Assembly: GCF_001571385.1 (NCBI RefSeq)
Contig: NZ_BCNW01000001.1
Location: forward strand, 1,798,001 to 1,862,000
Reading direction: 5' to 3'
Length of the DNA: 64,000 nucleotides
DNA from: Methanofollis ethanolicus
GTDB lineage: Archaea; Halobacteriota; Methanomicrobia; Methanomicrobiales; Methanofollaceae
Numbering within the stretch: the first letter of the stretch is position 1; each line of letters starts with the position of its first letter. Below the pieces are notes generated by a model. The model had not been told where the DNA came from. It did no database searches and saw nothing but the letters and a program-made list of their open reading frames with translations. This document shows, one piece after another, positions 32,733 to 48,221 of this stretch. A program made the position numbers and the translations under genes.

Positions 32733-32813
32733 GAGGGCGGGTAATTTCCCCCAGTCCCCCCCCCCCCCAACTCGCTTTTTTCCCTTAACCATCCCCGCCA
32801 TCAGGATAAGCCC

Positions 32814-33146: not shown

Positions 33147-33156
33147 GATAACACCA

Positions 33157-33181
33157 GGAAAAAAGGGGGGACAATCCCCCA
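33157..33181 (-). terminator. Hairpin with T-tract after the membrane-protein gene
   Basis: On the minus strand GGGGGATTGTCCCCCC is followed by six T residues. It is an intrinsic-type terminator about 80 bp after the stop codon of the gene at 33260-33625. Confidence 0.55.
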
Positions 33182-33259
33182 GAACCCCCGAAGGGGTGAC
33201 CGGCCACAGGTCGGAGGGTTTGGCTGGTAATCGGCGGCATCACAAGAAGAAGTGGACCC

Positions 33260-33625: not shown

Positions 33626-33669
33626 TTGTTCATTATCACGCTCCGATGATCAGACAATGGATGCCAAAG

Positions 33670-33679
33670 CATATATTTG
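33670..33679 (+). promoter_or_regulatory. TATA box for the gene at 33701
   Basis: CATATATTTG about 25-30 bp upstream of ATG 33701, in the gap between two divergent genes. The spacing suits a very short leader, although AAGGGAG before the ATG is also a good ribosome-binding site. Confidence 0.45.
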
Positions 33680-33700
33680 TTTTGCACATAAGGGAGATAA

Positions 33701-34132
33701 ATGAGTAGAGAAAGATATACACATGTGAAACCAGAACCAAACACCAATGCTATTGAAAACAAGATGGAGAAAACAGAGATCGAGATCCTCCGGCACCTTC
33801 AGAAAGCAGGAGTCAGCAAAGAAGACGCAATCGAGATCATGAGCCTGGCCGAAGACCACGAGACATATGTGATCCTGAAAATTGCCGAAATGGTGAACCA
33901 GGCCGCAAAGGAAGTGAGCCAGGGAGCGATCACCCCTGACGAAGGGTTCACCAGGATCATGATCAGGATGTTCATCCCCAAAGGCCCCCAGGTGAGCGAA
34001 GAGGAGGCCCACAAGATCAGAGAATACCGGGAAGACGGGTATTCGATCAGGCAGATCGCAAATGTGTTTCAGCGATCCACAGAGACGATCCACCGACTGA
34101 CAAAAGACATTGAAACCAAACAAACACCATAA
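33701..34132 (+). CDS. HTH DNA-binding protein of element 1
   Basis: A 143-aa protein with a helical N-terminal half, possibly a dimerisation domain, and a C-terminal resolvase-type HTH: HKIREYREDGYSIRQIANVF then QRSTETIHRL. It is divergent from the two-TM protein, so it may control that gene and itself. It is likely the regulator of element 1; an anti-sigma or ribbon fold is not seen. Confidence 0.7.
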   Translation: MSRERYTHVKPEPNTNAIENKMEKTEIEILRHLQKAGVSKEDAIEIMSLAEDHETYVILKIAEMVNQAAKEVSQGAITPDEGFTRIMIRMFIPKGPQVSEEEAHKIREYREDGYSIRQIANVFQRSTETIHRLTKDIETKQTP

Positions 34133-34513
34133 GGCACGCAAGCCCTCTCCCTGTCAGATCAAAGGGGAAAAGGGAAACTTTTCAACTATATAGGGGGCCC
34201 CATGAACAATATCGGTCCGCGTGCCCACTCCCCGTTAACCAATAGAGAGACGCACACGATCGCTGCCGCCCACCGCCGTTCAGCATGTCGATCGAGAGAA
34301 GGTATCATAGGTGACGGCGGGGCGACTGTATCCGAAATCTCAACTGTGGGACGACAGAGGGCGGTGTCCCAGGGCATATGAGTAACGAAGATAAGGCAAC
34401 TATAGGGGACAGAATAGGGAGCCACCACAAGAGATCTATAGTCGCTGAAAATTGCTTCTTTTTGAGTAACCCGAAAGGGATATTATGACGGGGCGAACAG
34501 AGAGTGTTGATAA
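34133..34513. other. Gene-poor stretch in element 1
   Basis: No gene that I can support. Two similar AACTATA-GGGG motifs occur (about 34184 and 34397). Open frames on both strands are short and lack domain signatures. Confidence 0.4.
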
Positions 34514-34663
34514 TCAGATATCCGGATCGCCCACAAACGATCCGCACACAGGACACCACCAGCCCACCGGCACCCAAGCGCGCTTACCCTCGACCTGTCG
34601 CCGGACATGCGCCCGGTACATCCTGGCGGCACACCTCGCACAGTGCGGTTCATTCTCTCGCAT
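34514..34663 (-). CDS. 49-aa zinc-ribbon protein
   Basis: A tiny basic protein with two CxxC knuckles: C8-A-R-C11 and C37-P-V-C40, separated by a basic helix (RMYRAHVRRQVEGKRAW). The cysteine pairs strongly favour this minus-strand frame over the longer plus-strand frames across it. A TATA-like TTTTTAAAC lies about 25 bp upstream of ATG 34663, consistent with a leaderless transcript. It probably binds nucleic acid or a protein partner. Confidence 0.55.
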   Translation of the reverse strand: MRENEPHCARCAARMYRAHVRRQVEGKRAWVPVGWWCPVCGSFVGDPDI

Positions 34664-34771
34664 GGCATACCATAATCAACAGTGTCGGTTTAAAAATGTT
34701 GTGCACCCACAAAGGGACAGCTGAGGCACCAAAAGCCACCAGTTTCAAAAAGACTTGCACAAAAGTAAAAG

Positions 34772-34812
34772 AGCCTCAGCCGGGCTTAAGGAAACGAAGT
34801 TCCTAAGCCCTA
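34772..34812. repeat. Junction attachment site between elements 1 and 2
   Basis: AGCCTCAGCCGGGCTTAA is identical over 18 bp to the left site at 26.69 kb and shares AGCCTCAGCCG with the tRNA-Thr 3' end. It continues into an inverted repeat, GGGCTTAAGGAA/TTCCTAAGCCC (34782-34811). It lies 36 bp before the second integrase, the same arrangement as at the left end. Confidence 0.8.
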
Positions 34813-34824
34813 CATTACCCTTAT

Positions 34825-36066
34825 ATGCAGAAGCACCTATTACTCCTCATGACGAACGGTCGTTTTCACGAATTGCCCCAGACCTACCGCGAATATGAAA
34901 AACGATCGATCCAGAAAGCAATTGATGACGGTCGTTTGACGAAGGGAGACGCGGCCCTTCTCTCCGAGTTTGTTGCAGAGGAGGCCGCCACCAAAAATCT
35001 CTCCCCACAGAGGCGGTACAAACTGGCATACACCCTCTGCACAGCGTCACAGTTTTTCCCCTCTGTGGATGACCTTTCCTTGACCGAAGTGTACGACGGC
35101 TTCGATGCGATCCGACAGGCCCGGAAGCCGAACGGCGACCCCTACAAACAGAACACGGTGGCGGACTTGACGAAGATATCAAAGCGGTTCCTGATCTTCC
35201 TGGCAGCGAACCAGCACATATCCGTCCCCGCGGCGAAGATCGAGAAGATCCGTACATCTAACTTCGATGTCCAGACGAAGACGGCCGAGGACATTCTCAC
35301 AGAGGAGGAAGTGAAGGCGATCATAGACGCCACGCGGTCTGTCAGATACAGGGCCATGATTGCCGTCATGTACGAAGGTGGCCTGCGGGCGATCGATGTG
35401 GCAAGCCTCCGGTGGAAGGACGTCTCGTTCTTCCCGTGGGGCGCGCGGATCAGAACCGACGAGAAGACGGGGTTCGAGCGCTCGATCCCGATCATCTCCT
35501 ATACGCAATATCTCGCAGAATGGAAGGCGTCATACCCCGGCACCCCCGAGGGCGAGAATTTTGTTTTTGTCAATATGCGAGGTTTACCAATGCAATATCG
35601 CGGTTTTTCCAAGGCAATTGGAATCTTCGCCAAGGAAGCCGGGATCGAGAAGCACATCACGCCCCATATCTTCCGACACAGTCGGATCACTCACGCTCTC
35701 CGGGGCGGCCTCCAGGAAACGATCGCAAAGAAAACATTCTGGGGCAACGAGGGCACCGAGATGATCAAGACCTATGCTCACCTCGTCGATGGTGATGCCG
35801 ACCGGGCATTCGCTGCCCTCGCCGGTGTGGAGATAGAGGAGACACGGCCGAGTACCGCCCTCGATCCGGTCCAGTGCGATCAGTGCCACACAATCAATGT
35901 CCCCGGAGCTCAACATTGTCACCGGTGCGGTGCCGGGCTAACTCCCGAGGCGCGGAGGAATGCGGAAGGGGTTCTGTCAGAACTTCAGGCACTCCTTAGC
36001 GAAGACCCCGCCTTTGCCATCGAAGCCATCCAGCGCATACGTGAGAAGCACTCTACGCGGGTTTAA
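34825..36066 (+). CDS. Tyrosine integrase of element 2 with C-terminal zinc ribbon
   Basis: A 413-aa recombinase homologous to the one at 26745 over its whole length. It shows GGLRAIDVASLRW (catalytic Arg), TPHIFRHSRITH (His, Arg, His) and the nucleophile Tyr in EMIKTYAHLV. A C-terminal zinc ribbon CDQCHTIN...CHRCG (~350-372) follows. The sequences differ enough that the two elements were acquired separately instead of being duplicated in place. It lies directly after the junction attachment site. Confidence 0.93.
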   Translation: MQKHLLLLMTNGRFHELPQTYREYEKRSIQKAIDDGRLTKGDAALLSEFVAEEAATKNLSPQRRYKLAYTLCTASQFFPSVDDLSLTEVYDGFDAIRQARKPNGDPYKQNTVADLTKISKRFLIFLAANQHISVPAAKIEKIRTSNFDVQTKTAEDILTEEEVKAIIDATRSVRYRAMIAVMYEGGLRAIDVASLRWKDVSFFPWGARIRTDEKTGFERSIPIISYTQYLAEWKASYPGTPEGENFVFVNMRGLPMQYRGFSKAIGIFAKEAGIEKHITPHIFRHSRITHALRGGLQETIAKKTFWGNEGTEMIKTYAHLVDGDADRAFAALAGVEIEETRPSTALDPVQCDQCHTINVPGAQHCHRCGAGLTPEARRNAEGVLSELQALLSEDPAFAIEAIQRIREKHSTRV

Positions 36067-36205
36067 CCTCGGGCCGCACAAGGTGCGCGACACCGACAAA
36101 ACAGAGCAGGAGAAGGCATAAATTTACTAAATTACTCAAATTTCGTCAGTCAGTTAGCCTTTAATAATTTTGAATACCATATCTAAATATGCTAAAACAA
36201 AGCGA
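36067..36205. other. AT-rich intergenic stretch in element 2
   Basis: From about 36118 to 36200 the DNA is mostly A/T (ATAAATTTACTAAATTACTC and similar) and precedes three palindromes. No gene is seen. It fits a DNA-unwinding element or a promoter region. Confidence 0.45.
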
Positions 36206-36313
36206 CCGCTGCTATCGTGCCCGCGATAGCAGCGGGCCACATCCGACATCGATACGATCGATGGGATGTATCCGAACTATCCCAACCCTGGGATAGTTAT
36301 CTATTAGATAACT
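36206..36313. repeat. Three successive perfect palindromes, origin-like
   Basis: CCGCTGCTATCG/CGATAGCAGCGG (36206-36235), AACTATCCCA/TGGGATAGTT (36275-36298) and AGTTATCT/AGATAACT (36295-36313) are perfect inverted repeats; the last two overlap by 4 bp. A fourth one, TTTAGCA/TGCTAAA, touches the start codon at 36383. Together with the AT-rich DNA before them they look like a replication origin or a multi-operator control region. Confidence 0.6.
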
Positions 36314-36382
36314 GTCTACAAAAGGATTTCGGTATACCATCCTCGGATGTGGGTTCGCTTTTTTTAGCAGCGGAAGTGCTAA

Positions 36383-36613
36383 ATGACCAAAAAAAGAGAA
36401 AGCAGACCGGATGGTGTAGATCGGGCTATCCTCAAATTCGTGCAGACCTCCCGGCAGGGCGCGACCATCTCCCAGATCCATCGAGAAGTATGCCCCTCCA
36501 AAAGAGAGGCACTCGTTCGCTACCGGATCGTCACCCTTGAACGTACAGGCCTTCTTCGATGCGGGTGCGTGCTGGGCCGGATTTTGGTCCTGCCAAAGGA
36601 GGTGTCCACATGA
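36383..36613 (+). CDS. Winged-helix regulator of element 2
   Basis: A 76-aa protein with a compact winged helix: VDRAILKFVQTSRQGATISQ then IHREVCPSKREALVRYRIVT, and a short wing ending LLRCGCVLG. It follows the palindromic region directly and may bind it. The stop overlaps the next start (ATGA). Confidence 0.7.
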   Translation: MTKKRESRPDGVDRAILKFVQTSRQGATISQIHREVCPSKREALVRYRIVTLERTGLLRCGCVLGRILVLPKEVST

Positions 36614-36771
36614 TAGCCGAGACGACAATCCCCTCCCGGACGATAAAACCCGACGTTCTTGCGGCCCTGAAAAAGACTCACCCTATCGAAGGGGCAGCGG
36701 CAGAGATTTTGATCAAGCGTGGCGTATGGTGTCTCGAAGCGCCTGAAAGGACGGTGAGCAAAATTGCATAA
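36610..36771 (+). CDS. 53-aa hypothetical protein
   Basis: A small protein (MIAETTIPSRTIKPDVLAAL...) with a central helix and no known domain. Its ATG overlaps the preceding stop, and its TAA overlaps the next ATG (TAATG), so it sits in a run of coupled genes. Confidence 0.55.
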   Translation: MIAETTIPSRTIKPDVLAALKKTHPIEGAAAEILIKRGVWCLEAPERTVSKIA

Positions 36772-36926
36772 TGAAGGCAGCGCCCCTCGCCGCCCTCGCC
36801 ACTCTTACTTTGGGCGCCCTTTATCTAAAAAGGTTCCGGCGCGACGAGATACCGCATGCCACCGGGCGACAAAGGACCTCCCTGTGGTATGCCGTTCGTG
36901 TGGAACGATCTGCGGCGCGTTCCTGA
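36771..36926 (+). CDS. 51-aa single-TM small protein
   Basis: Begins MKAAPLAALATLTLGALYL, a short hydrophobic helix, followed by KRFRRDE and a basic tail. The start overlaps the preceding stop by one base (TAATG). It shares 43 bp with the next zinc-protein frame. It could be a membrane-associated peptide of element 2; the coding potential is moderate. Confidence 0.4.
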   Translation: MKAAPLAALATLTLGALYLKRFRRDEIPHATGRQRTSLWYAVRVERSAARS

Positions 36927-37009
36927 CGAATGACGGCGCGTGCCCTCTCCTCGTGTGTGTTGGGTGCGCCCTCCGCGACGATGTCCGCTTCAAGGAGGCC
37001 ACTGCGTGA
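36884..37009 (+). CDS. 41-aa double-CxxC zinc protein
   Basis: The GTG start at 36884 has an AAGGA ribosome-binding site and gives a protein with CRSCGTIC and CPLLVCVGC, four or more zinc-binding cysteines. A longer version from TTG 36764 is open, but its first 40 residues are basic and low in structure. The stop overlaps the next GTG (GTGA). Confidence 0.5.
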   Translation: MVCRSCGTICGAFLTNDGACPLLVCVGCALRDDVRFKEATA

Positions 37010-37956
37010 TCGCGGCAAACGCCCCTGCTGCCATCGTGCCAGGGAAGACGACGAGCTTCGGACCGGTCACGCTTCTTGAAGGGATCTCGCTGACGATCTC
37101 AGCCACCCGTGGTGGTGGATGGGTCACAACCCTCTCCCGCGGCAATGAGGCGCTCGTCGAAGACCGCGCCGCCACCCTGCCGTGGATCGACCCTCGCGGA
37201 CCCGGGAGGCTTGCAGCCAAACTGCATGAAGCCCGCCCCACCCTCGATCAAAAAGCGATCAAGGGCGGTCTTCAGGATATTTTCGAGGCCGTCAAGAGTT
37301 CACCAGATAGCCCCGCCCTCGTCTCCGCGGCGGTCGAACGGGCGATCGGCGAGACGGCGGGGGTAAAGATCGAGATGTCAGACCCACCCGTCTACATCAT
37401 CGAACTTACCGGCGGGGAACGTCTGATCTTCCAGAACAGAGAGCTTGCCGACCCACGGCCGGGGAACCTCAATGATCGATGGCTCGCTACGCACCCTGGG
37501 GACGCTCTTGATGCGACCGGCAAGGACTTCAAAGAAATTCGGAACTACTGGTTCGGCATAGCGGAGCGGGTAGAACCGACAGGGGTTGGATCGCAGTGGG
37601 AGCCGGTCGCTGAAGCTCTTCAGATCCGACTCGCACCTCTCCCTGTAGGCACCGACAAGGACAGCCTTCTCAAGTATGGCCTTTTCCTCGAAGAGCAGCC
37701 CGATAAATCGACGATCCTCTGGGTAGCGAGCAACATTATCGAGTCGGTACTCAAAGACCACGGAAAATCTATCACGGACAGCACCTTCCCCGAATTTCTC
37801 CAGAGGGATAGGGATCTCCTGGTCAGATCACACCGCTTTCGTATAGGCAAACTCCGATGCCGCGCGTGGGGATTTAACCCGGATTTCCGGCCGGATGACG
37901 TCGGGATCACCAACCTTGAGACTCTTGTCGACGAGGATGAGGGGGATCAGCCATGA
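37006..37956 (+). CDS. Unknown protein upstream of the helicase
   Basis: A 316-aa protein without a recognised domain. The GTG start has a strong Shine-Dalgarno (AAGGAGG) 7-8 bases away, and GTGA overlaps the previous stop. Mixed alpha/beta composition; a C-terminal region (ILWVASNIIESVLKDHGKSI) suggests a helical DNA-binding part. It precedes the UvrD-like helicase and primase in the same overlapping series, so a replication role such as origin recognition or helicase loading is plausible. Confidence 0.7.
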   Translation: MIAANAPAAIVPGKTTSFGPVTLLEGISLTISATRGGGWVTTLSRGNEALVEDRAATLPWIDPRGPGRLAAKLHEARPTLDQKAIKGGLQDIFEAVKSSPDSPALVSAAVERAIGETAGVKIEMSDPPVYIIELTGGERLIFQNRELADPRPGNLNDRWLATHPGDALDATGKDFKEIRNYWFGIAERVEPTGVGSQWEPVAEALQIRLAPLPVGTDKDSLLKYGLFLEEQPDKSTILWVASNIIESVLKDHGKSITDSTFPEFLQRDRDLLVRSHRFRIGKLRCRAWGFNPDFRPDDVGITNLETLVDEDEGDQP

Positions 37957-38249
37957 CCTCGTCCCAGGCACCCCCTTATGTCCTGCGCGTGAGGAACACA
38001 TTCGCACGAAAACGTGCGAACTTGTTTTTAGCCGGGACGGTTGGGACGGTTGGGACACCCCAGAGTGGTGTGAGTATTAGCCTGATCGGAGACTCATTTG
38101 AGATGAATTTCTGTCCCACCCTCAACTTGTGTTACCCTGGTCACTCGGGACAGATCCCCATCCTAACACGATCACGAGCCGATGTAGTGTACGAAAGAGA
38201 GGATCGATCTTCCCTCGTGCGCGATATAATGGAGGCGATCGGGGCATGA
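37953..38249 (+). CDS. 98-aa hypothetical protein
   Basis: A small protein linked by ATGA overlaps on both sides to the unknown protein and the helicase. N-terminal part is basic (VRNTFARKRANLFLAG); no motif recognised. Confidence 0.55.
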   Translation: MTSSQAPPYVLRVRNTFARKRANLFLAGTVGTVGTPQSGVSISLIGDSFEMNFCPTLNLCYPGHSGQIPILTRSRADVVYEREDRSSLVRDIMEAIGA

Positions 38250-39967
38250 CCGCCGAACTGATCCGGTGGCGGGGAGGACCTGGCGCCGGGAAAAGCACGA
38301 CCCTGATCGAGTATGTTCGGTCCGAGGTGGATGCCGGCACGAAGATCGGTGACATTGTTGTAATGACCTTTAGCCGCAGCCAGGCCGCCGACCTTGCAAG
38401 CCGCCTACATGATGCGGTTTTCCCTGACGCGCCCGCAAAGGAGGTCCTGAGGTTGTGTGCGACGATTCACGGCATGGCTCTCAGAGCGTGCATGACCGCC
38501 GGTCTGATCGAGGACCCGCGTCAGCAGGTGATCCAACCCGGCGACCGGAGGAAGGCACCGATCTATCAGGCCTTCATGAATGAGCGCGGTCTCGAGTACG
38601 ACCCTCTGCTCGGTACCGACGAGGACGAGGACCGCAGTCGTGCCGACCTACCGACCGGGAACGCATTGATCACCCTCAACGCCTATCTCCAGGCTACTCT
38701 CTGCGGCCCCGAAGAATGGCGCAAGGCGGTCGCCGATCTCGGCCTCGGTGTCTCAAATCTTGTGGGGTCGGTTGAAGACCTCCTCCGAGCATGGGCAGCA
38801 TACAAGGCCGAGCGCGGGCTTTTCGAGCACGAAGACTACGTACGCCTTGCCCTCGATCACGAACTCCCGCCCCCCGCCCCGGCCCTGTTCGTCGATGAGT
38901 ATCAGGATGTCAGCCCGGCACAGAACGCCCTGATTGAGCAGTGGATCAACCATCCGGACACTCGCCGGGTCTATGTGGCCGGCGACGAGGACCAGAGCAT
39001 CTATGGCTTCCGCGGATGTGATCCCTCTCTCTTCCTCTCCCTCGCAGCAGAGGACCGGGGAGCACGGCCCGACGGCAGCCGGCCGACCTCGCACCGGTGC
39101 CCCGCCCGGATCATGGAGACGGCCGAAACGATCCTCGGACACCCGGCAAACGTCTCCCCTTGTAGCCGCAAGGGGCAGGTCCACCATGTCCGGCCCGGCA
39201 ATGCCGAAACCCTCGCCCGACAGGTGGAGGTCGCGGTCAAGTACGCCCGGACTAAAGAAGAGCGGCAGCCGGTCTTCGTCCTCAGTCGATTCAGGAAAGG
39301 TGCCGGCAGCCTCGCCCGCGCCCTGAGTGCGGCCGGGGTTCCCTGCGGCGACATCAAGCCGGGGAGGGTGCGGTTCTGGACATCGGCGAGGATCGGCAGG
39401 TCCCGCGACAGCCTCGAACCGACGACGATCAGCCCGTGGACCCTGAAGACGGCGATCGCCCGCTACCTCGCCGGGTGCGACATCGACCCGATCCCGGCGA
39501 ACGAGGCCGAGGCCCTCGCCCTTGCGGCCCTCGTCGGCAAGAAGCGATCCGCCGCCCTCACTGACCTGAGGATCAAGGCGAATCAGGGGCCGGTCCGCCT
39601 GGGCGACGTGTATGCCTGGACCGATGGCCGACAGGGGGACCGGATCTTCGACAGGCTCAACATGAGGCCGTGGCTCGTCCGACAGATTCGGGCATGTCTC
39701 GCCCGGGAAGCCCGGCGCGGCTACGAGATCACGCCCGAAATGGTGAAGGTGGACACGATCCACGCGGCGAAGGGTCTTGAGGCGGCCGTGGTCCTCCTGC
39801 ACACCGGATATCTGAAGGGCCGCCTGGACGACCTCAGGATGCCGGACCGACGAGCAGAAGAGAGGAGGGTGTACTTTGTCAGTGCGACCCGGGCAAGCCA
39901 CGCCCTTCTCCTTCTGGACTATGGCGAGGGGCCGGTGTGCCCGATCCTTGAAGGGGTGGGTGCGTGA
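38246..39967 (+). CDS. UvrD/PcrA-like SF1A DNA helicase of element 2
   Basis: A 573-aa helicase. Walker A GGPGAGKSTTL (~10), motif II DEYQDVSPAQ (~214), motif III GDEDQSIYGFRG (~243), motif V TIHAAKGLEAAVV (~505) and motif VI YFVSATRASH (~545) are in the usual order. UvrD-type helicases unwind 3'-to-5'. In this operon, ahead of a primase, it probably acts as the replicative or restart helicase. The ATG at 38246 overlaps the preceding stop and the end overlaps the primase GTG. Confidence 0.9.
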   Translation: MTAELIRWRGGPGAGKSTTLIEYVRSEVDAGTKIGDIVVMTFSRSQAADLASRLHDAVFPDAPAKEVLRLCATIHGMALRACMTAGLIEDPRQQVIQPGDRRKAPIYQAFMNERGLEYDPLLGTDEDEDRSRADLPTGNALITLNAYLQATLCGPEEWRKAVADLGLGVSNLVGSVEDLLRAWAAYKAERGLFEHEDYVRLALDHELPPPAPALFVDEYQDVSPAQNALIEQWINHPDTRRVYVAGDEDQSIYGFRGCDPSLFLSLAAEDRGARPDGSRPTSHRCPARIMETAETILGHPANVSPCSRKGQVHHVRPGNAETLARQVEVAVKYARTKEERQPVFVLSRFRKGAGSLARALSAAGVPCGDIKPGRVRFWTSARIGRSRDSLEPTTISPWTLKTAIARYLAGCDIDPIPANEAEALALAALVGKKRSAALTDLRIKANQGPVRLGDVYAWTDGRQGDRIFDRLNMRPWLVRQIRACLAREARRGYEITPEMVKVDTIHAAKGLEAAVVLLHTGYLKGRLDDLRMPDRRAEERRVYFVSATRASHALLLLDYGEGPVCPILEGVGA

Positions 39968-41160
39968 TCGACTGGACACCCCTTCTTGAAGACGCATGCC
40001 GGTTCTACGAGCGGCATCTCACTGACGAGCACCGCGCCTTCCTCCTCGCCCGCTACGGTTTCCAGCCATGGTTTGCGGAGAGGGCACGGATCGGATATGC
40101 CCCGGCAGACGGCGACGCCCTTCTTCAGCACCTCATGGACAGGGGATACAGCGGAGAGGAGATCGTCGGGTCCGGCCTCGTGCAGCGGTGGACGGTAGAG
40201 GGAAGGACCGGCGTTGCCGATCACTTCCGCGGCCGTCTCGTCTTCCCCTATTTGGGCGAGGGGGGGATGCCCCTCTACTTCATTGCCCGGGCAACCGACG
40301 AGACGCCAACACACGGCGACGAGGTGCCAGCGAAGTATAAGAAGCAGATCGTCACCGACGCCGGACCGAAAGAACCGATCTTCGGTGCATGGTCCGTGAT
40401 CGAGGGCGGACCTCTGATCGTCACCGAGGGGATCGCCGACGCCCTCGCGGTCCACCAGGCGTGTCGGTCGTGCCTCAGCCCGGTGACAACGAGCTTCAAG
40501 CAGGAGCGGATCGACGAGGCCGCTGCATACTGCACGCGGGCCGGCCCCGTCTACCTCATCAACGACAACGAGGAGAGCGGGGCCGGCCTGAAAGGAGCGA
40601 CGAAGACCGCCCTTGCCCTCCTCGCCCACGGGATCGGGAAGGTGTACATCGGCACCCTCCCGCGTCCTGAGGGGAGGGAGAAGATCGATATGAACGACTT
40701 CCTCAGGGAGGGCGGCGACCTCGCACAGGTCCTCGCCGAAGCGGTCCCGGCCGACGAGCACCCGGCGGTGAAGGAGGAGAAGAAAAAGGCGATCCAGGCA
40801 AGTGTTGCCGCCCTGCGGTCCTCCCTCGCCCGGCAGCGGTGGCAGGCGAGCGGGAAGAAGAAGAACGGTGACGACATCGAGGACCTGAAGCGCCGCATGC
40901 CTTCCCTCAGTGCCTACACCGGCGTTGCTCCGGGGAAGAGAGGACCGCACCCCGTCTATGGATCGACCCACGGCGACAACTTCGCCATATCCACAGACGG
41001 CGAGACATGGACCTCCTTCCATTGTGGGAACGAGACGGGAAAGGGCGGCAACATCTTCAAACTGATCGCCCTGGAGCAGGGATTCCTCCCCGACGAGGAC
41101 ATGCCCCTCCGGGGCGAGGCGTTCAAGCAGACGATCGAGTATTGCAAGGAGCGGTGGTAA
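39964..41160 (+). CDS. DnaG-type primase with Toprim domain, permuted layout
   Basis: A 398-aa primase. The N-terminal half is a DnaG catalytic core: HFRGRLVFPYLGEGG (~81), the Toprim Glu in IVTEGIADALAV (~152) and the acidic NDNEESGAG (~197). The C-terminal part (~320-398) resembles the zinc-finger domain usually found at the N-terminus of primases (HPVYGSTHGDNFAIS, TSFHCGNETGKGGNIFKLIA), so the order is swapped. GTG start overlaps the helicase stop; the end overlaps the next ATG (TAATG). Confidence 0.85.
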   Translation: MIDWTPLLEDACRFYERHLTDEHRAFLLARYGFQPWFAERARIGYAPADGDALLQHLMDRGYSGEEIVGSGLVQRWTVEGRTGVADHFRGRLVFPYLGEGGMPLYFIARATDETPTHGDEVPAKYKKQIVTDAGPKEPIFGAWSVIEGGPLIVTEGIADALAVHQACRSCLSPVTTSFKQERIDEAAAYCTRAGPVYLINDNEESGAGLKGATKTALALLAHGIGKVYIGTLPRPEGREKIDMNDFLREGGDLAQVLAEAVPADEHPAVKEEKKKAIQASVAALRSSLARQRWQASGKKKNGDDIEDLKRRMPSLSAYTGVAPGKRGPHPVYGSTHGDNFAISTDGETWTSFHCGNETGKGGNIFKLIALEQGFLPDEDMPLRGEAFKQTIEYCKERW

Positions 41161-41471
41161 TGACCGATTCAGCACCCAGAACTGCCGCCGGGACATTCGC
41201 GTCCGAAAGGGAACCCGGCAAAGCTCTTGAACGGGACGAGCTCGCCCGAATGCTCTCCGATGTTCTGAAAAATCTTCACGGCCGATTGACAGCCCCGCGT
41301 TTCAAGACGAAGAAGGCCGACAGCGAGATGTTGAGTATGGCGAGGGTGTTTGTCCAGGCGATCACGGCCCTTGACGGTCTGATCAAGAACTCAGAACTCC
41401 AGGAGATAGAGCAGAGGTTATCGGCCCTCGAAGAACCGATAAAAGAACGAGAAAAGCCAAACAGAGCGTGA
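41160..41471 (+). CDS. 103-aa helical protein after primase
   Basis: A small, mostly helical protein (DVLKNLHGRLTAPRFKTKKA ... EIEQRLSALE). No family recognised. Its ATG overlaps the primase stop by 1 bp, so it belongs to the same operon. A single-strand-binding, loader or structural role cannot be distinguished. Confidence 0.6.
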   Translation: MTDSAPRTAAGTFASEREPGKALERDELARMLSDVLKNLHGRLTAPRFKTKKADSEMLSMARVFVQAITALDGLIKNSELQEIEQRLSALEEPIKEREKPNRA

Positions 41472-41475
41472 TAAG

Positions 41476-41997
41476 ATGAGATCGTTAAACAAAAGGATGG
41501 AGAAAGTGGAGGACAACCTAAGCCCCGAAAAGACCGCCGGGTATCTGAAATCTCTGATACGGCAGGTAGCAGACACCGACGACCCCGCCGAAGCCGCCGC
41601 ACTCCGGCGCATAGCATCTCGCGTCGCACGATGCGAGACGGGGGAGAAGGCCACCAGAGTAAAGGAAATTCTCATTGACGGCGCGGTGTCCGCCATAGCA
41701 CGCGAGATCTTCTGTGCAAACATGAATGTCGTCGTGTGGAGGGTTCGGTACTGGAAAGCCCAGCTTGAAAAGGCCGATATCCTTCTGGCAGTAGCAGAAG
41801 AGGCCGGACATGCCGAAGCAGTGACCCGTGGTAAAGAAACCCGAAAAACGCTTGCCCGGGGACTGGATCAAGCCGTCCGGGACCTCACTGACACCATCAA
41901 TGCCCCCGAGTGGGACGATGCGGGGGTGGAAGTCCCCGAGGTTCCTGAAGACCTCGCCGACATGATACCGGCACGCCCCCGAAACGAAGGCCGATGA
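41476..41997 (+). CDS. 173-aa helical protein of unknown function
   Basis: Almost entirely alpha-helical, acidic at the C-terminus (VEVPEVPEDLADMIP). The middle contains IFCANMNVVVWRVRYWKAQL. No family recognised. It lies between the replication operon and the tail genes; it could be a head-tail or regulatory protein. Confidence 0.6.
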   Translation: MRSLNKRMEKVEDNLSPEKTAGYLKSLIRQVADTDDPAEAAALRRIASRVARCETGEKATRVKEILIDGAVSAIAREIFCANMNVVVWRVRYWKAQLEKADILLAVAEEAGHAEAVTRGKETRKTLARGLDQAVRDLTDTINAPEWDDAGVEVPEVPEDLADMIPARPRNEGR

Positions 41998-42042
41998 ACA
42001 CCCCGCCGGCAGGGTCACGCCGGCACACCAAGAGATGAGAGT

Positions 42043-42309
42043 ATGAAACAGACCCCCTGTATAATTGATCTCACGACGGACGAGAATGCCGCCACGATCG
42101 CAGCAGAGTATCAGAACGCCGCCGCGGACTTCGAGATTGCCCGGAAGTCCATCGGAGAGATCGTAGCCGACTGGCACCCCGAACTCGAAGAGCAGGTAAA
42201 CCGAGCTTCGCAGAGTTTCGGATCGCAGCTCAAAGAACTCTTCCCTGGTGGGGAGGGTATACCCCCACTCGAACGGCCCATGTATAACCCTCTGGAGGTG
42301 CGGAGATGA
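42043..42309 (+). CDS. 88-aa hypothetical protein before tail chaperones
   Basis: Starts MKQTPCIIDLTTDENAATIA and contains a helical middle (EYQNAAADFEIARKSIGEIV). Its end overlaps the next start by 4 bp. A role in tail assembly is possible by position only. Confidence 0.55.
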   Translation: MKQTPCIIDLTTDENAATIAAEYQNAAADFEIARKSIGEIVADWHPELEEQVNRASQSFGSQLKELFPGGEGIPPLERPMYNPLEVRR

Positions 42310-42647
42310 TCCAGGACTTCTCGATCTTCGTCCCCGACCCCGTGACCCTCCGGATCGGTAGGGCTAACCAGGTCAAGGACCTCGACCTCTCCGTTATCCC
42401 GGCGAAGTCCAGCCTCAGGATCATCCACTTTTACGAGGAGAAGGACGGGAAGGACGCAACCTCTGAGGAGGTCGTGAACCTTGCCGCCGGCGTCCTCCAC
42501 GACATCGACCCCGGCGTCACTGAAGAGTGGCTGTGGAAGAACTACAGCCTGCGCGATCTCACGAGGATCGCCACCTTCGTCCTTGAACGGGCAGCGACCC
42601 AGGAAAGCGCCACCCCGGCCACAGGAGAGGCCGCAAAAAACGTGTGA
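42306..42647 (+). CDS. Tail assembly chaperone, upstream frame (gpG-like)
   Basis: A 113-aa protein directly before the second chaperone frame and the tape measure, the position held by gpG in tailed viruses. It has a beta-strand N-terminus and a helical C-terminus (EEWLWKNYSLRDLTRIATFV). The last codons are GCA AAA AAC GTG TGA, which contain the heptamer A_AAA_AAC. It is assigned as a chaperone from position, size and the frameshift signal, not from direct sequence identity. Confidence 0.7.
   Translation: MIQDFSIFVPDPVTLRIGRANQVKDLDLSVIPAKSSLRIIHFYEEKDGKDATSEEVVNLAAGVLHDIDPGVTEEWLWKNYSLRDLTRIATFVLERAATQESATPATGEAAKNV
42623..42641 (+). promoter_or_regulatory. -1 programmed frameshift site: slippery A_AAA_AAC with upstream AGGAG
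   Basis: The heptamer AAAAAAC (42635-42641) is in the X_XXY_YYZ phase of the first frame, two codons before its stop. AGGAG (42623-42627) lies 7 nt upstream of it, the position where a Shine-Dalgarno stimulates slippage in bacterial dnaX. A -1 slip leads directly into the frame that starts at 42644. AGGAG is 16 nt from that GTG, too far for normal initiation there. Confidence 0.75.
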
Positions 42648-42961
42648 TCGAGCTTGGGAGGATTGTCGCACGGATGGGGCGCACCTACGGGTGGACCCCT
42701 CGGCAAATCCTTTCCGAGCTCAGTCTCGGACAGATGGCAACCCTTCACCGATATGCCCAGGAGATGGACGGATTGATCCCTCGTAAGATCGACAACGGGC
42801 CAGACGCGGACGCGTTCGGGAAGCATGGGGATGATGGACCGGACGTGGACGCGATCGAGGCCCGGTATGGCAGCATGATCAAGCGGCAAACCGCAGAAAC
42901 ATTCGATGTCGCGACGATCGAACGGATCACCGGACTGAAAGTGAAGCGAGGCAAAGCATGA
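42644..42961 (+). CDS. Tail assembly chaperone, downstream frame (gpT-like)
   Basis: A 105-aa frame that can be read as the T part of a G-T fusion after a -1 slip at 42635, or from GTG 42644, which overlaps the upstream stop (GTGA). The segment YGWTPRQILSELSLGQMATL is like the G-W-x-P-x-E/Q-I-x-x-L pattern of phage T domains. The fusion protein would run from 42306 to 42961. It ends at the tape-measure start. Confidence 0.7.
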   Translation: MIELGRIVARMGRTYGWTPRQILSELSLGQMATLHRYAQEMDGLIPRKIDNGPDADAFGKHGDDGPDVDAIEARYGSMIKRQTAETFDVATIERITGLKVKRGKA

Positions 42962-45300
42962 CCGAAGAGGTAATCAACAGGCTCGTCGTGGAGATCGTCG
43001 GCGACTCGTCCGGCCTTGTCTCCGCATTCGACGAGGCCGCAAAAGTTTCCACGAATTTTGAGGATCGTCTGAAAGCGGTCGGATCGAGTTTCACCCAGAC
43101 CGGAAAGGACCTCACTCTTACGGTCACGGCCCCCCTCGCCCTCGCAGGTGCAGCCGCCCTGAAGATGGCCGGGGACGCAGAAGAGACGCAGAGCAAGTTC
43201 AATACCGTCTTCGGAGAGATGGCCGCCGATGCCGAAGCGTGGGCAGATAAGTTCGGCGGTGCCGTCGGCCGATCCCGCACCGACTTGAAGGCGACGTCCG
43301 CCACCTTCGGTGACATGCTCCAGGGCATGGGTGCGACCCGTGAGGAGTCCCTGAAACTCGCGGAGGCCATGACACAGCTCGGTGTCGATATCGCCTCTTT
43401 CTCGAACTCCACAGACGAGGAGGCGTGGATCTCCCTGAGGTCTGCCGTAACCGGCGAATATGAGGCGATGAAGAAGTACGGCGTTGTCCTCAACGAAGCC
43501 GCCGTGAATCAGGAACTTCTCAACATGGGTGTCGCCGGCGGGGCCGCCGAGGCCACAAACGCCGAGAAAGCACAGGCTCGCCTGAACCTGATCATGCAGG
43601 CGACCACAAACGCCCAGGGCGACGCCGAGCGAACCGCCGGGTCGTTCTCAAATCAGATGAAGGCCCTCACCGGCGACCTGAAGGACGTGACCGAGGAACT
43701 CGGGGCCGAGCTGATCCCCCTCGCCCAGGACGGGATCGCCCTCGCCCGTGGGGGTCTGGAGACCTTCAAGAACCTCGACGACGGGACAAAGAGGATGGTC
43801 GTCTCCGTCGCCGCCCTCGCTGCCGCCACGGGTCCTGCTCTCGTCGTGGGAGGGAAAATGCTCACCCTCGCCGGCGACACATCCGTGGCGTACAAGAAGT
43901 TCCACGTCCTCCTCGATGAGAAGGTCATCCCCGGCCTGAAATCGCAGATCGCACAGATGAAGATCGCCGGCAGCACGGCCCGCGCGACCGCCCTCTCGAT
44001 GGGGGTCCTTGCAGCAGCCACAGCGGGACTTGCAGCGGGGATAATCCTCACAAACCGCTACATTGACGAGGCCGAGGAGAAATCGAAGCGTTTGAAGGAC
44101 GCGATCGACGCCCTCGCCGACTCGTCCGGCCACTCGTCCGAGGAACTCCGCGACCTCGCCCGCAGGCTCCGGGAGGGTGCAGACGCCTCGCAGTTTTACG
44201 CGTCGGCCCTGAAGTCGATAGGCTCCCCGATGGCAAACGTAAACGCCGCCCTCGGCGTGATGACCCCTGAAATGAACAAGGCGAGCCAGGAAACCCGAGA
44301 TGCTGGTGCCGACCTCCTCGAGTACCGGGCAAACCTCCTGGACTTTGCATCGGCGGCAGAGGTGAGGATGCGCGATGTCACGGCGACCTACGAAACCCAC
44401 CGCACGAAGGTCGAAGAACTCAGAGGTCAGTACGACGAGTTGAAGACCTCGATCGATCGCGCCCTCGGGATCGAGGAGGACATCGACGACCAGAGCCGCG
44501 CCGTGGAGAGGACCGAGATCCGCAAGATCCGGGCGGATCGGGATCTCAAAGACCTCGAAGACGAGATCGCCGAAAAAGAACGGGAGATGGCCACCGGGGA
44601 GTATGGCAGCATCGACGAGAGGGAGAAGGCCGAGGAGGATCTCGCCGACCTCAAGCTCCGACACCGGGAGGCGACCCTGAACCTCGCTGACGCCGAGGAC
44701 GCCCTTCAGGACGCACAGGAGAGATCAAAGGACCTTGCCACAGAGAAAGCGGCCCTGGAAAAGAAGCTCGGCGATGAGGGGGTCGAAGGGGCAAAGAAAC
44801 GCCTCGAAGAGATCGGAAAGACCCTCGAAGACGAGACCGCCAAGATGGATACCGCCTACAAGGAGCGGGAGGACCTCAGGCTGAAGCATGACAGCGCTAT
44901 GCTGGAGTTCGACAAAACAACCCTCCAGACGACCGTGGAGAACTGGCAGAAACTCGCCAAGTATTACCAGGACAACCCGATCGTCCGCACTGTCGGGGTT
45001 CAGGTTGCAGGCGAGGACGGCAGCGTTCAGATCTTCGTCCCCGAGGCCCCTGCTTTGAACTTCACAATGCCGGACTTCGGCAACCCCTACGCCGACACCA
45101 AGGGTGCAAACGCGGTGGCCCCAGTCGCCACCCCTACCGCAGCGGCCCCCTCCCACAACGAGACGGTGTTGGTAAGCAAGAAGGGGGACGTCGTGATCGA
45201 GAGCATTGTGGTGAACTCCCCGAAGGCGGATGCAAGCACGATGGTGTATGAACTGCGGAGGACCATGCGGGATATGTACCGCGAGAGTACAATGGGGTGA
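42958..45300 (+). CDS. Tail tape measure protein
   Basis: A 780-aa tape measure protein of the TP901-like family. The N-terminal part carries the phage TMP signature (LTVTAPLALAGAAALKMAGD ... SKFNTVFGEMAADAEAWADK). Hydrophobic helices follow (~275-360). Then comes a long charged coiled coil (~455-650, with blocks such as EIAEKEREMATGEYGS) and a Thr/Ala-rich end. By the phage rule of roughly 0.15 nm per residue it would set a tail of about 115-120 nm; that is an inference. It overlaps the chaperone frame by 4 bp. No tail tube, baseplate or head genes follow. Confidence 0.9.
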   Translation: MTEEVINRLVVEIVGDSSGLVSAFDEAAKVSTNFEDRLKAVGSSFTQTGKDLTLTVTAPLALAGAAALKMAGDAEETQSKFNTVFGEMAADAEAWADKFGGAVGRSRTDLKATSATFGDMLQGMGATREESLKLAEAMTQLGVDIASFSNSTDEEAWISLRSAVTGEYEAMKKYGVVLNEAAVNQELLNMGVAGGAAEATNAEKAQARLNLIMQATTNAQGDAERTAGSFSNQMKALTGDLKDVTEELGAELIPLAQDGIALARGGLETFKNLDDGTKRMVVSVAALAAATGPALVVGGKMLTLAGDTSVAYKKFHVLLDEKVIPGLKSQIAQMKIAGSTARATALSMGVLAAATAGLAAGIILTNRYIDEAEEKSKRLKDAIDALADSSGHSSEELRDLARRLREGADASQFYASALKSIGSPMANVNAALGVMTPEMNKASQETRDAGADLLEYRANLLDFASAAEVRMRDVTATYETHRTKVEELRGQYDELKTSIDRALGIEEDIDDQSRAVERTEIRKIRADRDLKDLEDEIAEKEREMATGEYGSIDEREKAEEDLADLKLRHREATLNLADAEDALQDAQERSKDLATEKAALEKKLGDEGVEGAKKRLEEIGKTLEDETAKMDTAYKEREDLRLKHDSAMLEFDKTTLQTTVENWQKLAKYYQDNPIVRTVGVQVAGEDGSVQIFVPEAPALNFTMPDFGNPYADTKGANAVAPVATPTAAAPSHNETVLVSKKGDVVIESIVVNSPKADASTMVYELRRTMRDMYRESTMG

Positions 45301-45327
45301 GGGTCCCCTCCTCCATTTGATTATTTC

Positions 45328-45666
45328 TCAGCGACGGCCCCACCGCGTGAAATCCTCTTCTAACCAGGGGCGTTCATACCACATCTGCAGCTCATAGTAA
45401 ACCTTGACCTCCCCTATGGGGTCAGGGTCGGAGCAGGCGGCGATCCGGTATCGGTCGTGGGCTCCATCGTATTCAAGGACCGTCATCAGATGCGTTTCCG
45501 GGGATGAGTTCAGGTACTTGTGGGCCACGATAAGATCGTCGGTCTGAAACAGAGGATGCGGAACCAGAAGCGCCCACCCCGCAACGAGGGTTACAAGGGC
45601 GCAAAGGACGATCGCGAGGACGGGGTATGCTCGATTCATATATCGGGGAATGTGCTCCTCGGGCAT
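45328..45666 (-). CDS. Single-TM surface protein of element 2
   Basis: From the Met before PEEHIPRYMNRAYPV this is a 112-aa protein with one TM helix (PVLAIVLCALVTLVAGWALL) and an outward domain of about 75 residues containing VLEYDGAHDRYRIAACSD and WYERPWLEED. It resembles the lipoprotein encoded next to it at 45754. A longer start (45714) is possible. Function unknown; superinfection exclusion or surface display are options. Confidence 0.6.
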   Translation of the reverse strand: MPEEHIPRYMNRAYPVLAIVLCALVTLVAGWALLVPHPLFQTDDLIVAHKYLNSSPETHLMTVLEYDGAHDRYRIAACSDPDPIGEVKVYYELQMWYERPWLEEDFTRWGRR

Positions 45667-45753
45667 ATATGATAATCGGCGGGGGTGCGACCATCTTCTC
45701 ACCGGGCGAAACACCCCTAAAAAAGAATTGGATCGGTGCTCCTAGGGAGAGAC

Positions 45754-46083
45754 CTACAATCTAAGGGTGATCATTTTGAGATCGTCAATATCTACATGCC
45801 CTAATTTGTATTTATAAATCATTTCAGCACAACTCCTATCCTCCCACGTTTTCGTATCTATATCTGCCCTCATCCACCGACCCAATCCATCGCGGTGAAT
45901 AAACGTTATAAAATATTGATCTAACGTCTCGTCGTAGTCAAGAACCACATATGCTACGTCCTGATATCCATCTTCAAAAGAGATAACATCTCCGGGGTGG
46001 TATTTTGCCTTGGAGAGCCCCTCGCACCCCCCGACAAGGATTGCAGATATTAAGAGAATGCAGAAAACAAATTGCGCCTTCAT
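45754..46083 (-). CDS. Small lipoprotein of element 2
   Basis: A 109-aa protein with a lipoprotein signal peptide (MKAQFVFCILLISAILVGGC, lipobox ending at Cys20) and an outward domain (YVVLDYDETLDQYFITFIHR, TKTWEDRSC). The pattern [VL]-x-[LE]-YD-x(3)-D-x-Y-x-I is shared with the neighbour at 45328, so the two are probably paralogues with different anchors. Temperate elements often express lipoproteins that block superinfection; that role is inference here. Confidence 0.65.
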   Translation of the reverse strand: MKAQFVFCILLISAILVGGCEGLSKAKYHPGDVISFEDGYQDVAYVVLDYDETLDQYFITFIHRDGLGRWMRADIDTKTWEDRSCAEMIYKYKLGHVDIDDLKMITLRL

Positions 46084-46154
46084 AAAAGGCTTTTATCATC
46101 ACAACGGCTGAAAAATATTCCTATTTGGGATTCCAGGATCTAGGGATAAGGGGC

Positions 46155-46337
46155 TCACGCCCCGTCTTTTATCTTCGAGACGATCAGACGGAAGTGATCG
46201 ATGTCAATCTCGATTGATACCTCCTCCCCCTCCTCAAACGGGAACTGAGAGTCTCCTACAACCGCCGACGGGATCGAGAGATATTTTGTCTTTGCGCGAC
46301 CCGCCGAAACCAGGCGGCCCTTTCCTTCGGTGACCAT
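46155..46337 (-). CDS. AbrB-like 60-aa DNA-binding protein
   Basis: A short protein, MVTEGKGRLVSAGRAKTKYL then SIPSAVVGDSQFPFEEGEEV, with the KxxLxIPxxVxxDxxFxFxxGEEVxI pattern of swapped-hairpin AbrB/SpoVT regulators. I chose ATG 46337 because the extra N-terminal residues of the longer frame are outside the fold. It is divergent from the gene at 46426 and the gap between them holds repeated TTACAC/GTGTAA sites that it could bind. Confidence 0.65.
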   Translation of the reverse strand: MVTEGKGRLVSAGRAKTKYLSIPSAVVGDSQFPFEEGEEVSIEIDIDHFRLIVSKIKDGA

Positions 46338-46402
46338 TACACTGTATATTACACCGTAAAGTATATATGCATGCCTGCCATACATTGTATTGTACACGTG
46401 TA
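46336..46402. promoter_or_regulatory. Divergent control region with repeated TTACAC/GTGTAA sites
   Basis: ATTACAC occurs at 46336-46342 and 46348-46354, 12 bp apart, followed by the palindrome TACACGTGTA at 46393-46402. TATA-like AAGTATATAT lies between them (46358-46367). The first site overlaps the start of the AbrB-like gene. Confidence 0.5.
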
Positions 46403-46425
46403 AAACACACAGAGGATTGAGACAG

Positions 46426-46899
46426 ATGATGACACAGACAGGAAAAATCACCCGGGCTCACGAGGCCCTGAGGATCGAACTTGAAGCGCGGCCAGGGGAG
46501 TATCTCGTGGTCGGCGCGTCGGATGCCCGAGAACTCGTCGCCACTGGCGCAACGGTCCCCCTCTACCAGATCATCAGGGGCGACGACGTGGACATCGTGC
46601 AGGAGGCCGGGACCGCGTACGGGACGAAGACAGGGAAGGGGATCGCCCTCCACATCACGACCGGCCTGCCGGTCGTCCCGACCATGTATGCAAGCCGGGC
46701 AGCGGTGGAAGCGGTGCACAGGGGCGCACGGACCACCGCACCGGTCAGCGCCCCCGAGGACCGCCCCGCTCACCAGCAGGAGCCAGCGAAGAGGACCGAC
46801 GCGTGGGACTCGTCCCGCCTGAAGCGCGGCTTTGGTGATGCGGCCAACCCACCGAGAGGAGGAGGAAGGCCCGCGCCCTCCCCTGTGATCGTGGTGTGA
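46426..46899 (+). CDS. 157-aa hypothetical protein of element 2
   Basis: A protein with a compact N-terminal alpha/beta domain (HEALRIELEARPGEYLVVGA ... YQIIRGDDVDIVQEAGTAYG) and a Pro/Arg-rich disordered tail. An AGAGGA ribosome-binding site precedes the adjacent ATGs. No family recognised. It is divergent from the AbrB-like regulator. Confidence 0.6.
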   Translation: MMTQTGKITRAHEALRIELEARPGEYLVVGASDARELVATGATVPLYQIIRGDDVDIVQEAGTAYGTKTGKGIALHITTGLPVVPTMYASRAAVEAVHRGARTTAPVSAPEDRPAHQQEPAKRTDAWDSSRLKRGFGDAANPPRGGGRPAPSPVIVV

Positions 46900-47208
46900 G
46901 CTCACCGCCCCCGATGACGACTCTGCCCGGGGTCTGAGGGAGCATCAAACCTGCCCAAACCTCAAGTGTGAGAAAATGTCTGGAACGACGGCGACTCTGC
47001 CCGACCCCCTGCCCCGTCCCGGGGCATAAATACGGAATACTGCGGAACCGAGGCGGGGACCGCACCCCGCCCCCTCTTTTCTGGCGCCGACACCGCGCTT
47101 ATACCGTGCGTACGCGTTGTGCTAACCGCGTCGACGCGGTGGATCAACTGCACCGACAAAGATCGAAATCTTTTACCCCTCCCGAACATGGAGGAATGAG
47201 GGAATCCA
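46900..47208. other. Gene-free 309-bp stretch
   Basis: No gene seen. A GACGACTCTGCCCGGG-like motif occurs twice in similar form (about 46916 and 46988). A good ribosome-binding site (GGAGGAATGAGGG) for the next gene is at its end. Confidence 0.4.
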
Positions 47209-47805
47209 ATGGTGGAGTTAGATCTCGATATCAGTATTAATCTGGCCATTAATACGAAGAAAGAAGAATACGTCCCGTTTCTCGTAACGGGGGGAAAATG
47301 CACGGAAATCCTCACCATGGTGTGGGTACATAATCGGGATGCTTTTGCCGACCGGATCGCGTTCGCCGGCCGATTCGGGGCTTCCACGGTTTCAGTTCAC
47401 AATGGCATATCGTGGCTGGGTTTCTCCGGACCTGCTCCTTATGGATGGGAACCGTGCCGGGAGACGTTCTTGGGGTATGAATATTATTATTCCAATGTCA
47501 GGAATTACGAACCATCTGATCCAGAGATCAAAACGGAGATCGAGTCGCTATCTCATTTGTACGATCGGGATGATCTGGCTCAATTTATCGACTGTCCTGT
47601 AACCCTCGACGAGGAAGATATCATCCGTCCCCCGTACTTCGAGAGGGTGGGCACCTCATATGTGCTCTGGATCTCAAAGGCGGATGTCGCCGCAGGGTAT
47701 CGACCCCCCGGTGAGTCGCGGCAGTTGAAGATGTCTGAATATTGGGATATGGTGGAGCAGATCGGGGCACCTGGGGAGAGCGACCCGCCATATCAAGCCG
47801 CCTGA
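47209..47805 (+). CDS. 198-aa hypothetical protein at the right end of element 2
   Basis: A mixed alpha/beta protein, acidic, with aromatic-rich blocks (GWEPCRETFLGYEYYYSNVR). No family recognised. It has a strong ribosome-binding site and stands alone near the attachment site, a usual place for cargo genes of integrated elements. It might be an exclusion or defence gene, but nothing in the sequence proves it. Confidence 0.6.
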   Translation: MVELDLDISINLAINTKKEEYVPFLVTGGKCTEILTMVWVHNRDAFADRIAFAGRFGASTVSVHNGISWLGFSGPAPYGWEPCRETFLGYEYYYSNVRNYEPSDPEIKTEIESLSHLYDRDDLAQFIDCPVTLDEEDIIRPPYFERVGTSYVLWISKADVAAGYRPPGESRQLKMSEYWDMVEQIGAPGESDPPYQAA

Positions 47806-48148
47806 GGTTTGAATACAAATCATTCGGCGCGACAGCAGATGCGCGCAGATGGCCGCAAGCAGGGCGTCGGGTGTGATTCATCGCCCCCTGCGGCACGACG
47901 ATCTGAAGGCCGTGAGAAACGAAGGAAAATACATATTTCTCCCGGGGCATGGGGGGTATGTGCAGATACCCCGGGCAACAGCGGAATGATCGCACCGGCC
48001 CCAAAAACATGAAGTTTTGCAGGCGATTCGATGAACGGAGACAAACGCACACCCCGCCGCACTCAGAAACCTTGCAAAACTTTGCCCTTAGAAAAGAGGC
48101 CCAATTTGGGCGTATTTTTTATGTGGGATTAAGAACTCACGTTCTTTA
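47806..48148. other. Non-coding DNA next to the tRNA-Thr attachment site
   Basis: No convincing gene. AGTTTTGCAGG (about 48012) and CCTTGCAAAACT (about 48072) form a spaced inverted repeat. Near an attachment site these could be integrase arm-binding sites. Confidence 0.4.
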
Positions 48149-48160
48149 AGCCTCAGCCGA
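48130..48160. repeat. Right attachment site within tRNA-Thr 3' end
   Basis: GGATTAAGAA, 12 bp, then AAGCCTCAGCCG, matching the left site in sequence and spacing. The second part is the 3' end of the tRNA-Thr gene, which stays intact at this end. Confidence 0.8.
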
Positions 48161-48221
48161 GATTTGAACTCGGGACCTTGTCCTTACCAAGGACACGCTC
48201 TACCAGCTGAGCCACTGAGGC
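48149..48221 (-). tRNA. tRNA-Thr (anticodon GGT)
   Basis: The 73-nt minus-strand sequence folds with acceptor stem GCCTCAG/CTGAGGC and discriminator T. The D arm is GCTC/GAGC, the anticodon stem TGTCC/GGACA with loop TTGGTAA, and the T arm CCGAG/CTCGG with TTCAAAT. Anticodon GGT reads Thr codons. No CCA is encoded. Its 3' end is the integration target of the two elements. Confidence 0.96.

Follow-up and report, generated by a model that had tools for sequence, protein, structure and literature searches.

A putative tail chaperone pair with a conserved -1 frameshift signal in a capsid-less integrated element of Methanofollis ethanolicus

The chaperone cassette and its slippery site

The window analysed here comprises 64,000 nt of the Methanofollis ethanolicus genome (assembly GCF_001571385.1, contig NZ_BCNW01000001.1, positions 1,798,001-1,862,000, forward strand). 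Two small open reading frames, ORF1 and ORF2, are found directly 5' of a tape measure gene (Table 1), in the arrangement of a G/GT cassette, and the last 4 nt of ORF2 are shared with the start of the tape measure gene. The cassette is preceded by a primase gene and small unknown genes, and the major tail protein gene that is its usual (not universal) neighbour was not found.

The last codons of ORF1 read GCA (42633-35) AAA AAC GTG TGA (42645-47) and include the heptamer A_AAA_AAC in the phase of ORF1. After a -1 slip the C of the heptamer is read again, giving CGT GTG ATC GAG CTT, which is the frame of ORF2 and stays open to 42961. An earlier note on this DNA had described this junction, the phase of the heptamer and the entry into ORF2; re-reading of the coordinates proved it exact. 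The distances it gave for an AGGAG, located 7 nt 5' of the heptamer and 16 nt 5' of the GTG at 42644 (the codon at which ORF2 would start if it stood alone), were likewise confirmed. A point absent from the note is that this GTG overlaps the ORF1 stop codon (GTGA), and stop-start coupling therefore had to be tested by comparison.

The in-frame pattern nnA-AAA-AAC is rare: it was encountered twice per 26,123 codon triplets in the ORFs of at least 250 aa of the window, and 0 times per 34,757 codon triplets in six other loci. Given this rarity, the chance of finding such a site within the last ~15 codons of a given ORF is about 5e-4, conservation left aside.

Table 1. Features of the tandem insertion at tRNA-Thr and of the chaperone junction (positions in the window)
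Feature	Position	Strand	Evidence or remark
Tandem element A, separate, 8.1 kb	26689-34782		attL core 26689-26699; same tRNA-Thr site
Left att core CGGCTGAGGCT, common to the neighbouring element	34772-34782		repeat of the core
Tyrosine integrase	34825-36066	+	PF00589 8e-24; 45% to L014 and 48% to L122 integrases
UvrD-family helicase	38129-39967	+	PF00580 1.5e-20, phrog_1967 2.5e-45
DnaG/Toprim primase-like protein	39964-41160	+	PF08275, PF13362, phrog_47
Two small proteins between primase and ORF1	41476-41997, 42043-42309	+	no family matched
ORF1, putative G-like tail assembly chaperone, 113 aa, ATG start	42306-42647	+	homologous to M. cariaci, Blf4 and others; predicted fold
AGGAG, proposed SD-like stimulator, without support	42623-42627	+	pairing not significant, not conserved
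Slippery heptamer A_AAA_AAC, phase of ORF1	42635-42641	+	same heptamer and phase in 16/16 pairs
-1 frame extension (T-like domain), product RVIELGRIVARMGRTYGWTP...	42641-42961	+	Y-x-W motif invariant in homologues
GTGA, possible ORF2 start overlapping the ORF1 stop	42644-42647	+	alternative: stop-start coupling
Tape measure protein, 780 aa, uninterrupted	42958-45300	+	phrog_1533 2.6e-17, other tape-measure families
Two lipoprotein-like ORFs	45328-45714, 45754-46083	-	homologues downstream of the L013 tape measure
AbrB-like regulator, downstream of the tape measure	46155-46451	-	homologues in L013 and L014
Right att core, tRNA-Thr 3' end	48149-48159		empty sites in same-genus G009 and G011
tRNA-Thr (GGT), integration target	48149-48221	-

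Identity of the proteins

The structure predicted for ORF1 (pLDDT 81) consists of a beta hairpin and four helices. In a fold search against viral models the best named matches were tail assembly chaperones, at ranks 3, 6, 8 and 13, including that of Halobacterium phage ChaoS9, with probabilities of 0.99-1.00 and, for the first two, an E-value of about 0.01 (best 6e-3). Sequence profiles gave only weak matches for ORF1 (phrog_893, E 0.01) and no family match for ORF2, for which the model was also poor (pLDDT 66); sequence and fold searches of the PDB returned nothing relevant. The predicted fold thus supports, though it does not prove, a role of ORF1 as a tail assembly chaperone. The earlier note had read the pair as G/GT chaperones, in line with this resemblance and with the identity of the next gene.

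If the pair works as in lambda, the short chaperone would coat the tape measure protein encoded immediately downstream, and tail tube subunits would be recruited by the T part; this chaperone activity is inferred. The lambda G/G-T pair differs in that it belongs to a full tail operon, whereas the cassette of the window is not preceded by a tail tube gene; the lambda heptamer differs from A_AAA_AAC as well. That ORF1 and ORF2 represent the archaeal equivalent of lambda G and G-T appears fairly probable when judged jointly with the satellite role discussed below.

Conservation of the heptamer and the frame relation

Profile searches of the order and the phylum brought the set of distinct chaperone pairs to 16, from the Methanomicrobiales and from more distant members of the phylum, several of them in another family. 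All 16 carry A_AAA_AAC in phase, and no exception was found among the pairs recovered; the conservation of heptamer and frame relation in homologues, proposed in the note as a test, therefore holds. The first homologous pair was that of a Methanogenium cariaci provirus (G134, L015), with ORF1 33% and ORF2 58% identical, where ORF1 ends in ACA AAA AAC GGG TGA. In the lytic Methanoculleus bourgensis virus Blf4 the end reads AGC GAA AAA AAC CGG TGA. The distance from the heptamer to the ORF1 stop varies from 0 to 42 nt across the 16 pairs, which indicates that the site, and not the stop, is the conserved element. In ORF2 the Y-x-W motif is invariant among the homologues.

An alignment of 11 representatives, whose ORF1 products share 18-30% identity with the window copy, contains only two invariant ORF1 columns, K111 and N112, which are encoded by AAA (11/11) and AAC (11/11). 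The D, A, P, L, T, Y and G columns of the same alignment use two to four codons each (e.g. D GAT6/GAC4; A GCA5/GCC4/GCG1; Y TAT6/TAC5), which shows that enough time has passed for synonymous sites to diverge. With the K-N pair as given, codon usage would produce the heptamer at an expected frequency of 2 to 9% per locus; the 11 representatives share ancestry and are not 11 independent trials.

A few loci stand apart. In L049 (G454) ORF1 is broken by an in-frame stop, but the heptamer and the T domain beyond it persist; this is probably a decaying provirus. The M. cariaci provirus has its tape measure split in two frames (L015, 4860-7324), through decay or an assembly error. A weak ORF2 match in G132 (L020) lay inside an unrelated gene and was dropped, and a match from the Planctomycetaceae (L023), with only a YGWTPxQI stretch in common, was left unused. 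No relatives of ORF1 were found in the viral contigs searched with ORF1 alone.

Frameshifting and other routes to the second frame

These observations make it very probable that ORF1 and ORF2 are joined by a -1 frameshift on A_AAA_AAC. Most ribosomes would halt at the TGA at 42645 and release the short chaperone, while a minority would slip back by one base on the heptamer, with re-pairing of the Lys and Asn tRNAs, to produce a G-T-like fusion ...EAAKNRVIELGR... Slippage itself and its efficiency are inferred.

Two other mechanisms could give access to ORF2. Under stop-start coupling, ribosomes terminating at the TGA at 42645 would re-initiate at the GTG at 42644, and two separate proteins would result instead of a fusion. 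Stop-start overlaps are frequent among ordinary genes, and the GTGA is found in M. cariaci and Blf4 as well as in the window; it is, however, not conserved, whereas the heptamer is, down to its frozen synonymous sites. In G463, the most similar setting, GTA replaces GTG and TAA replaces TGA while the heptamer is intact. Moreover, eight of the 16 loci (G463 and seven others) offer no ORF2 start at a distance of up to 12 nt from the site, the next start in the seven being located just 5' of or within the conserved Y-x-W region. Coupled or internal initiation can therefore not be the shared mechanism, and we regard it as a very improbable explanation of the pair, although at the window junction itself re-initiation at the GTG could add some ORF2 product. 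Slippage of the RNA polymerase on the A run, by which one A is added to some of the mRNAs, would also open the ORF2 frame and give a fusion. The run measures six A in the window and in M. cariaci and seven in several other loci, which is short for efficient polymerase slippage. Such slippage would not need the C that always follows the A run and completes an exact X_XXY_YYZ heptamer in phase; we consider it equally improbable.

With regard to stimulators, the note had proposed that the AGGAG acts as in dnaX, for which no support was found. Duplexes between the 16S anti-SD and the 24 nt that precede the heptamer were compared with those of shuffled sequences (window P=0.09, Blf4 0.52, G116 0.75), and in none of the three did the duplex exceed the shuffles; in Blf4 and G116 any SD-like pairing is weak or lacking. 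Likewise, no 3' stem of unusual stability was detected when the 60 nt downstream were folded and compared with shuffles (window z -0.3). As no stimulator was found, the frameshift efficiency may be low. The E. coli dnaX frameshift is stimulated by both an SD and a hairpin. Neither is supported in the window. Both sites have an A-rich heptamer of the X_XXY_YYZ type that follows a stretch rich in purines, but the comparison finds no support beyond the heptamer class, and dnaX has A_AAA_AAG (PMC5009743) where the window has A_AAA_AAC.

The 13.4-kb carrier element

An element of 13.4 kb, integrated at a tRNA-Thr gene, harbours the cassette. The core CGGCTGAGGCT occurs three times (Table 1), and the insertion therefore consists of two tandem elements, each with its integrase gene first (26745 and 34825); the chaperone pair belongs to the right-hand one. 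Element A encodes, besides the integrase at 26745, an excisionase-like HTH protein and a D5 primase (30396), and has no tape measure. The tRNA-Thr site is empty in two genomes of the same genus (G009 and G011).

Among the scanned ORFs of 34772-48159 no portal, major capsid or terminase families were found, and no head or tail-tube genes were recognised in that interval. Compared with seven tailed-virus loci of related hosts, only the chaperones and the tape measure are held in common. An ordinary tailed provirus was set aside once the ends of the element had been mapped. The archaeal element in which the earlier note placed the chaperone pair is thus not a tailed provirus, the head, portal and tail-tube genes of such viruses not being recognised in it.

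Elements with a tape measure and without portal or capsid were found in four genera, one in each (the window, L122, L014 and L013), all made up of an integrase and/or a primase, a tape measure and a tRNA at the right end. The element L122 (G463) measures 16.5 kb between direct repeats TGCCCCCACCCGGATTT at a tRNA-Phe; it encodes an integrase, a D5-type primase, a split terminase, an ORF1/ORF2 pair with A_AAA_AAC and a tape measure, and no portal or capsid gene was found. Its terminase large subunit consists of two overlapping ORFs (G463:C58, 7246-8741), one matching phrog_7579 (the ATPase part) and the other phrog_27743 (the second part). In L014 (G130) an integrase, a tape measure, an AbrB-like gene and a right-end tRNA-Phe are present, and in L013 (G057), the left end of which falls outside the compared sequence, a primase, a tape measure, an AbrB-like gene and a right-end tRNA-Phe; both lack the chaperones. 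L013 has homologues of the ORFs 3' of the tape measure; they too follow its tape measure gene, on the same strand. The AbrB-like gene, common to the window, L013 and L014, was tried as a marker of the element family and rejected, its homologues being too widespread.

In the compared set the tape measure of the window is nearest to those of Blf4 and G075 (38-39%; further comparisons with Blf4 gave 38-44%), that of L013 to M. cariaci (73-77%), and those of L122 and L014 to G460 (61% and 55%, respectively). For L013, L122 and L014 the nearest copy in this set is in each case that of a tailed virus and not of another element, which suggests that the tape measures of the elements have been captured repeatedly from local viruses.

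Satellite or decayed provirus

Since a tape measure and chaperones serve no purpose unless a tail tube is available, the element presumably comes into play when a tailed virus infects the host. As no head or tail-tube genes were recognised, both structures would have to come from such a co-infecting virus, and the element's own tape measure and chaperones would then redirect the tail assembly of this helper. A satellite that redirects helper tails is the most economical reading of the gene content, and we think it rather probable that the 13.4-kb element is a satellite. The same degree of confidence applies to the statement as a whole, i.e. that the chaperones are made by frameshifting and are carried by a satellite that redirects helper tail assembly. 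Typical of satellites, the element is discrete and integrated, with an integrase and att sites; it has replication genes and no full head set, and it is recurrent (window, L122, L014 and L013).

The main rival is that the frameshift is real and the carrier a decayed tailed provirus that kept its chaperones and tape measure. Proviruses do decay through deletion, the tape measure resembles those of tailed viruses of related hosts, and L122 has kept a split terminase. Decay does not readily agree with the state of the element, which still has its two att sites and a full-length integrase, and whose replication genes are intact and 780-aa tape measure unbroken, nor with the similar make-up of four elements in four genera, all without portal or capsid, of which L013, L014 and the window have the AbrB-like gene in common. 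We therefore deem a decayed provirus unlikely, and favour the satellite. It is possible, too, that the element acts as a decoy that spoils helper tails.

A search with phrog_2 found no helper virus in the host genome, but its sensitivity is limited, since the terminase of the M. cariaci provirus (G134) escaped it as well. A weak phrog_2 match to a 1051-aa frame in the host was read as unrelated. A search of the host genomes with the Blf4 terminase gave nothing either, and it too missed a known provirus.

The small integrated satellites P4, SaPI and AH14b (PMC4936722) similarly have integrase and replication genes and no head genes. The element of the window, a candidate satellite, differs from them in being archaeal and in bringing its own tape measure and tail chaperones. 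Where P4 and SaPI redirect capsid size, the counterpart proposed here would be a piracy directed at the tail. Within the Methanomicrobiales, small integrated Methanosphaerula elements without capsid genes, with the prim-pol arCOG07809, have been proposed as satellites and linked to fuselloviruses (PMC4158269), but tape measures and tail chaperones are not mentioned there. A literature search, which was not exhaustive, found no capsid-less Methanomicrobiales satellite with a tape measure and chaperones. More tentatively, the four elements might represent a family of tRNA-integrated Methanomicrobiales satellites with their own tape measure, two of them with a G/GT pair, that take over the tail length or tip specificity of a helper and borrow its head and tail tube.

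Known cases in archaea and significance

The earlier note called an archaeal example this clear worth testing. It is not the first clear one, since the mechanism has already been predicted for haloarchaeal viruses: -1 frameshifting in HVTV-1 and HCTV-1, -2 and -5, with A_AAA_AAC in HCTV-2, and +1 frameshifting in HSTV-2 (PMC5009743, PMC8211752). The slippery site of Hardycor1 is G_GGA_AAT (PMC7911831). The phage tail chaperone family of frameshifts, with lambda G/G-T, is that of Xu et al. 2004, as cited in PMC7911831 and PMC5009743. We checked the record of HCTV-2 (Haloarcula californiae tailed virus 2), in which the identical heptamer is found in GCA AAA AAC TGA and a joined chaperone CDS is annotated. 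As in the window, the heptamer is located at the end of ORF1 and is followed by a -1 extension and then the tape measure (PMC5009743). HCTV-2 is likened to the window by heptamer and gene order; it differs in that it is a complete virus of haloarchaea, in which capsid and tail-tube genes are present and the T domain has 164 codons.

Blf4, the ORF1, ORF2 and tape measure of which are homologous to those of the window, is also a complete virus with a full tail operon, as is HCTV-2. In its record (L035, MZ171369, 13342-13602) no frameshift is annotated and the second small CDS (13441-13602) is truncated, whereas reading on from the heptamer in the -1 frame yields an 86-aa extension; the Blf4 paper does not mention a frameshift.

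Two further loci show other signals. In the Methanobacterium phage psiM2 (L132, AF065411) ORF19 contains an in-phase A_AAA_AAG (13712-13718), 57 nt 5' of the stop; a -1 shift there opens 76 codons with a GWSLREIL motif, 5' of a tail protein gene. Judged from its sequence, this is an unannotated chaperone frameshift of the dnaX type. The chaperone pair of L012, a related provirus (G075:C118, 11031-11051), is of another type: its ORF1 ends in CGG TCC TTT CGG TCG AAG TGA, with ORF2 in the +1 frame and the +1 motif UCC_UUU_CGG. Motifs of this type are used by influenza A. A similar +1 motif, TTT-CGC, has been proposed for HF1 haloviruses (PMC7230728).

For archaea, frameshifting in tail chaperones was known chiefly from a small number of haloviruses; the present data extend it to viruses of methanogens, where one heptamer is deeply conserved. 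The annotation of Blf4, an isolated virus, is corrected, and the fusion can be tested there by mass spectrometry. What is new is the context, a frameshift pair in a capsid-less element. If the satellite reading is true, an archaeal element would keep only the tail-ruler module of a virus together with its translational ratio control. Helper takeover by such a route would be new for a satellite, and what the G:GT ratio is for could then be tested outside a full virus.
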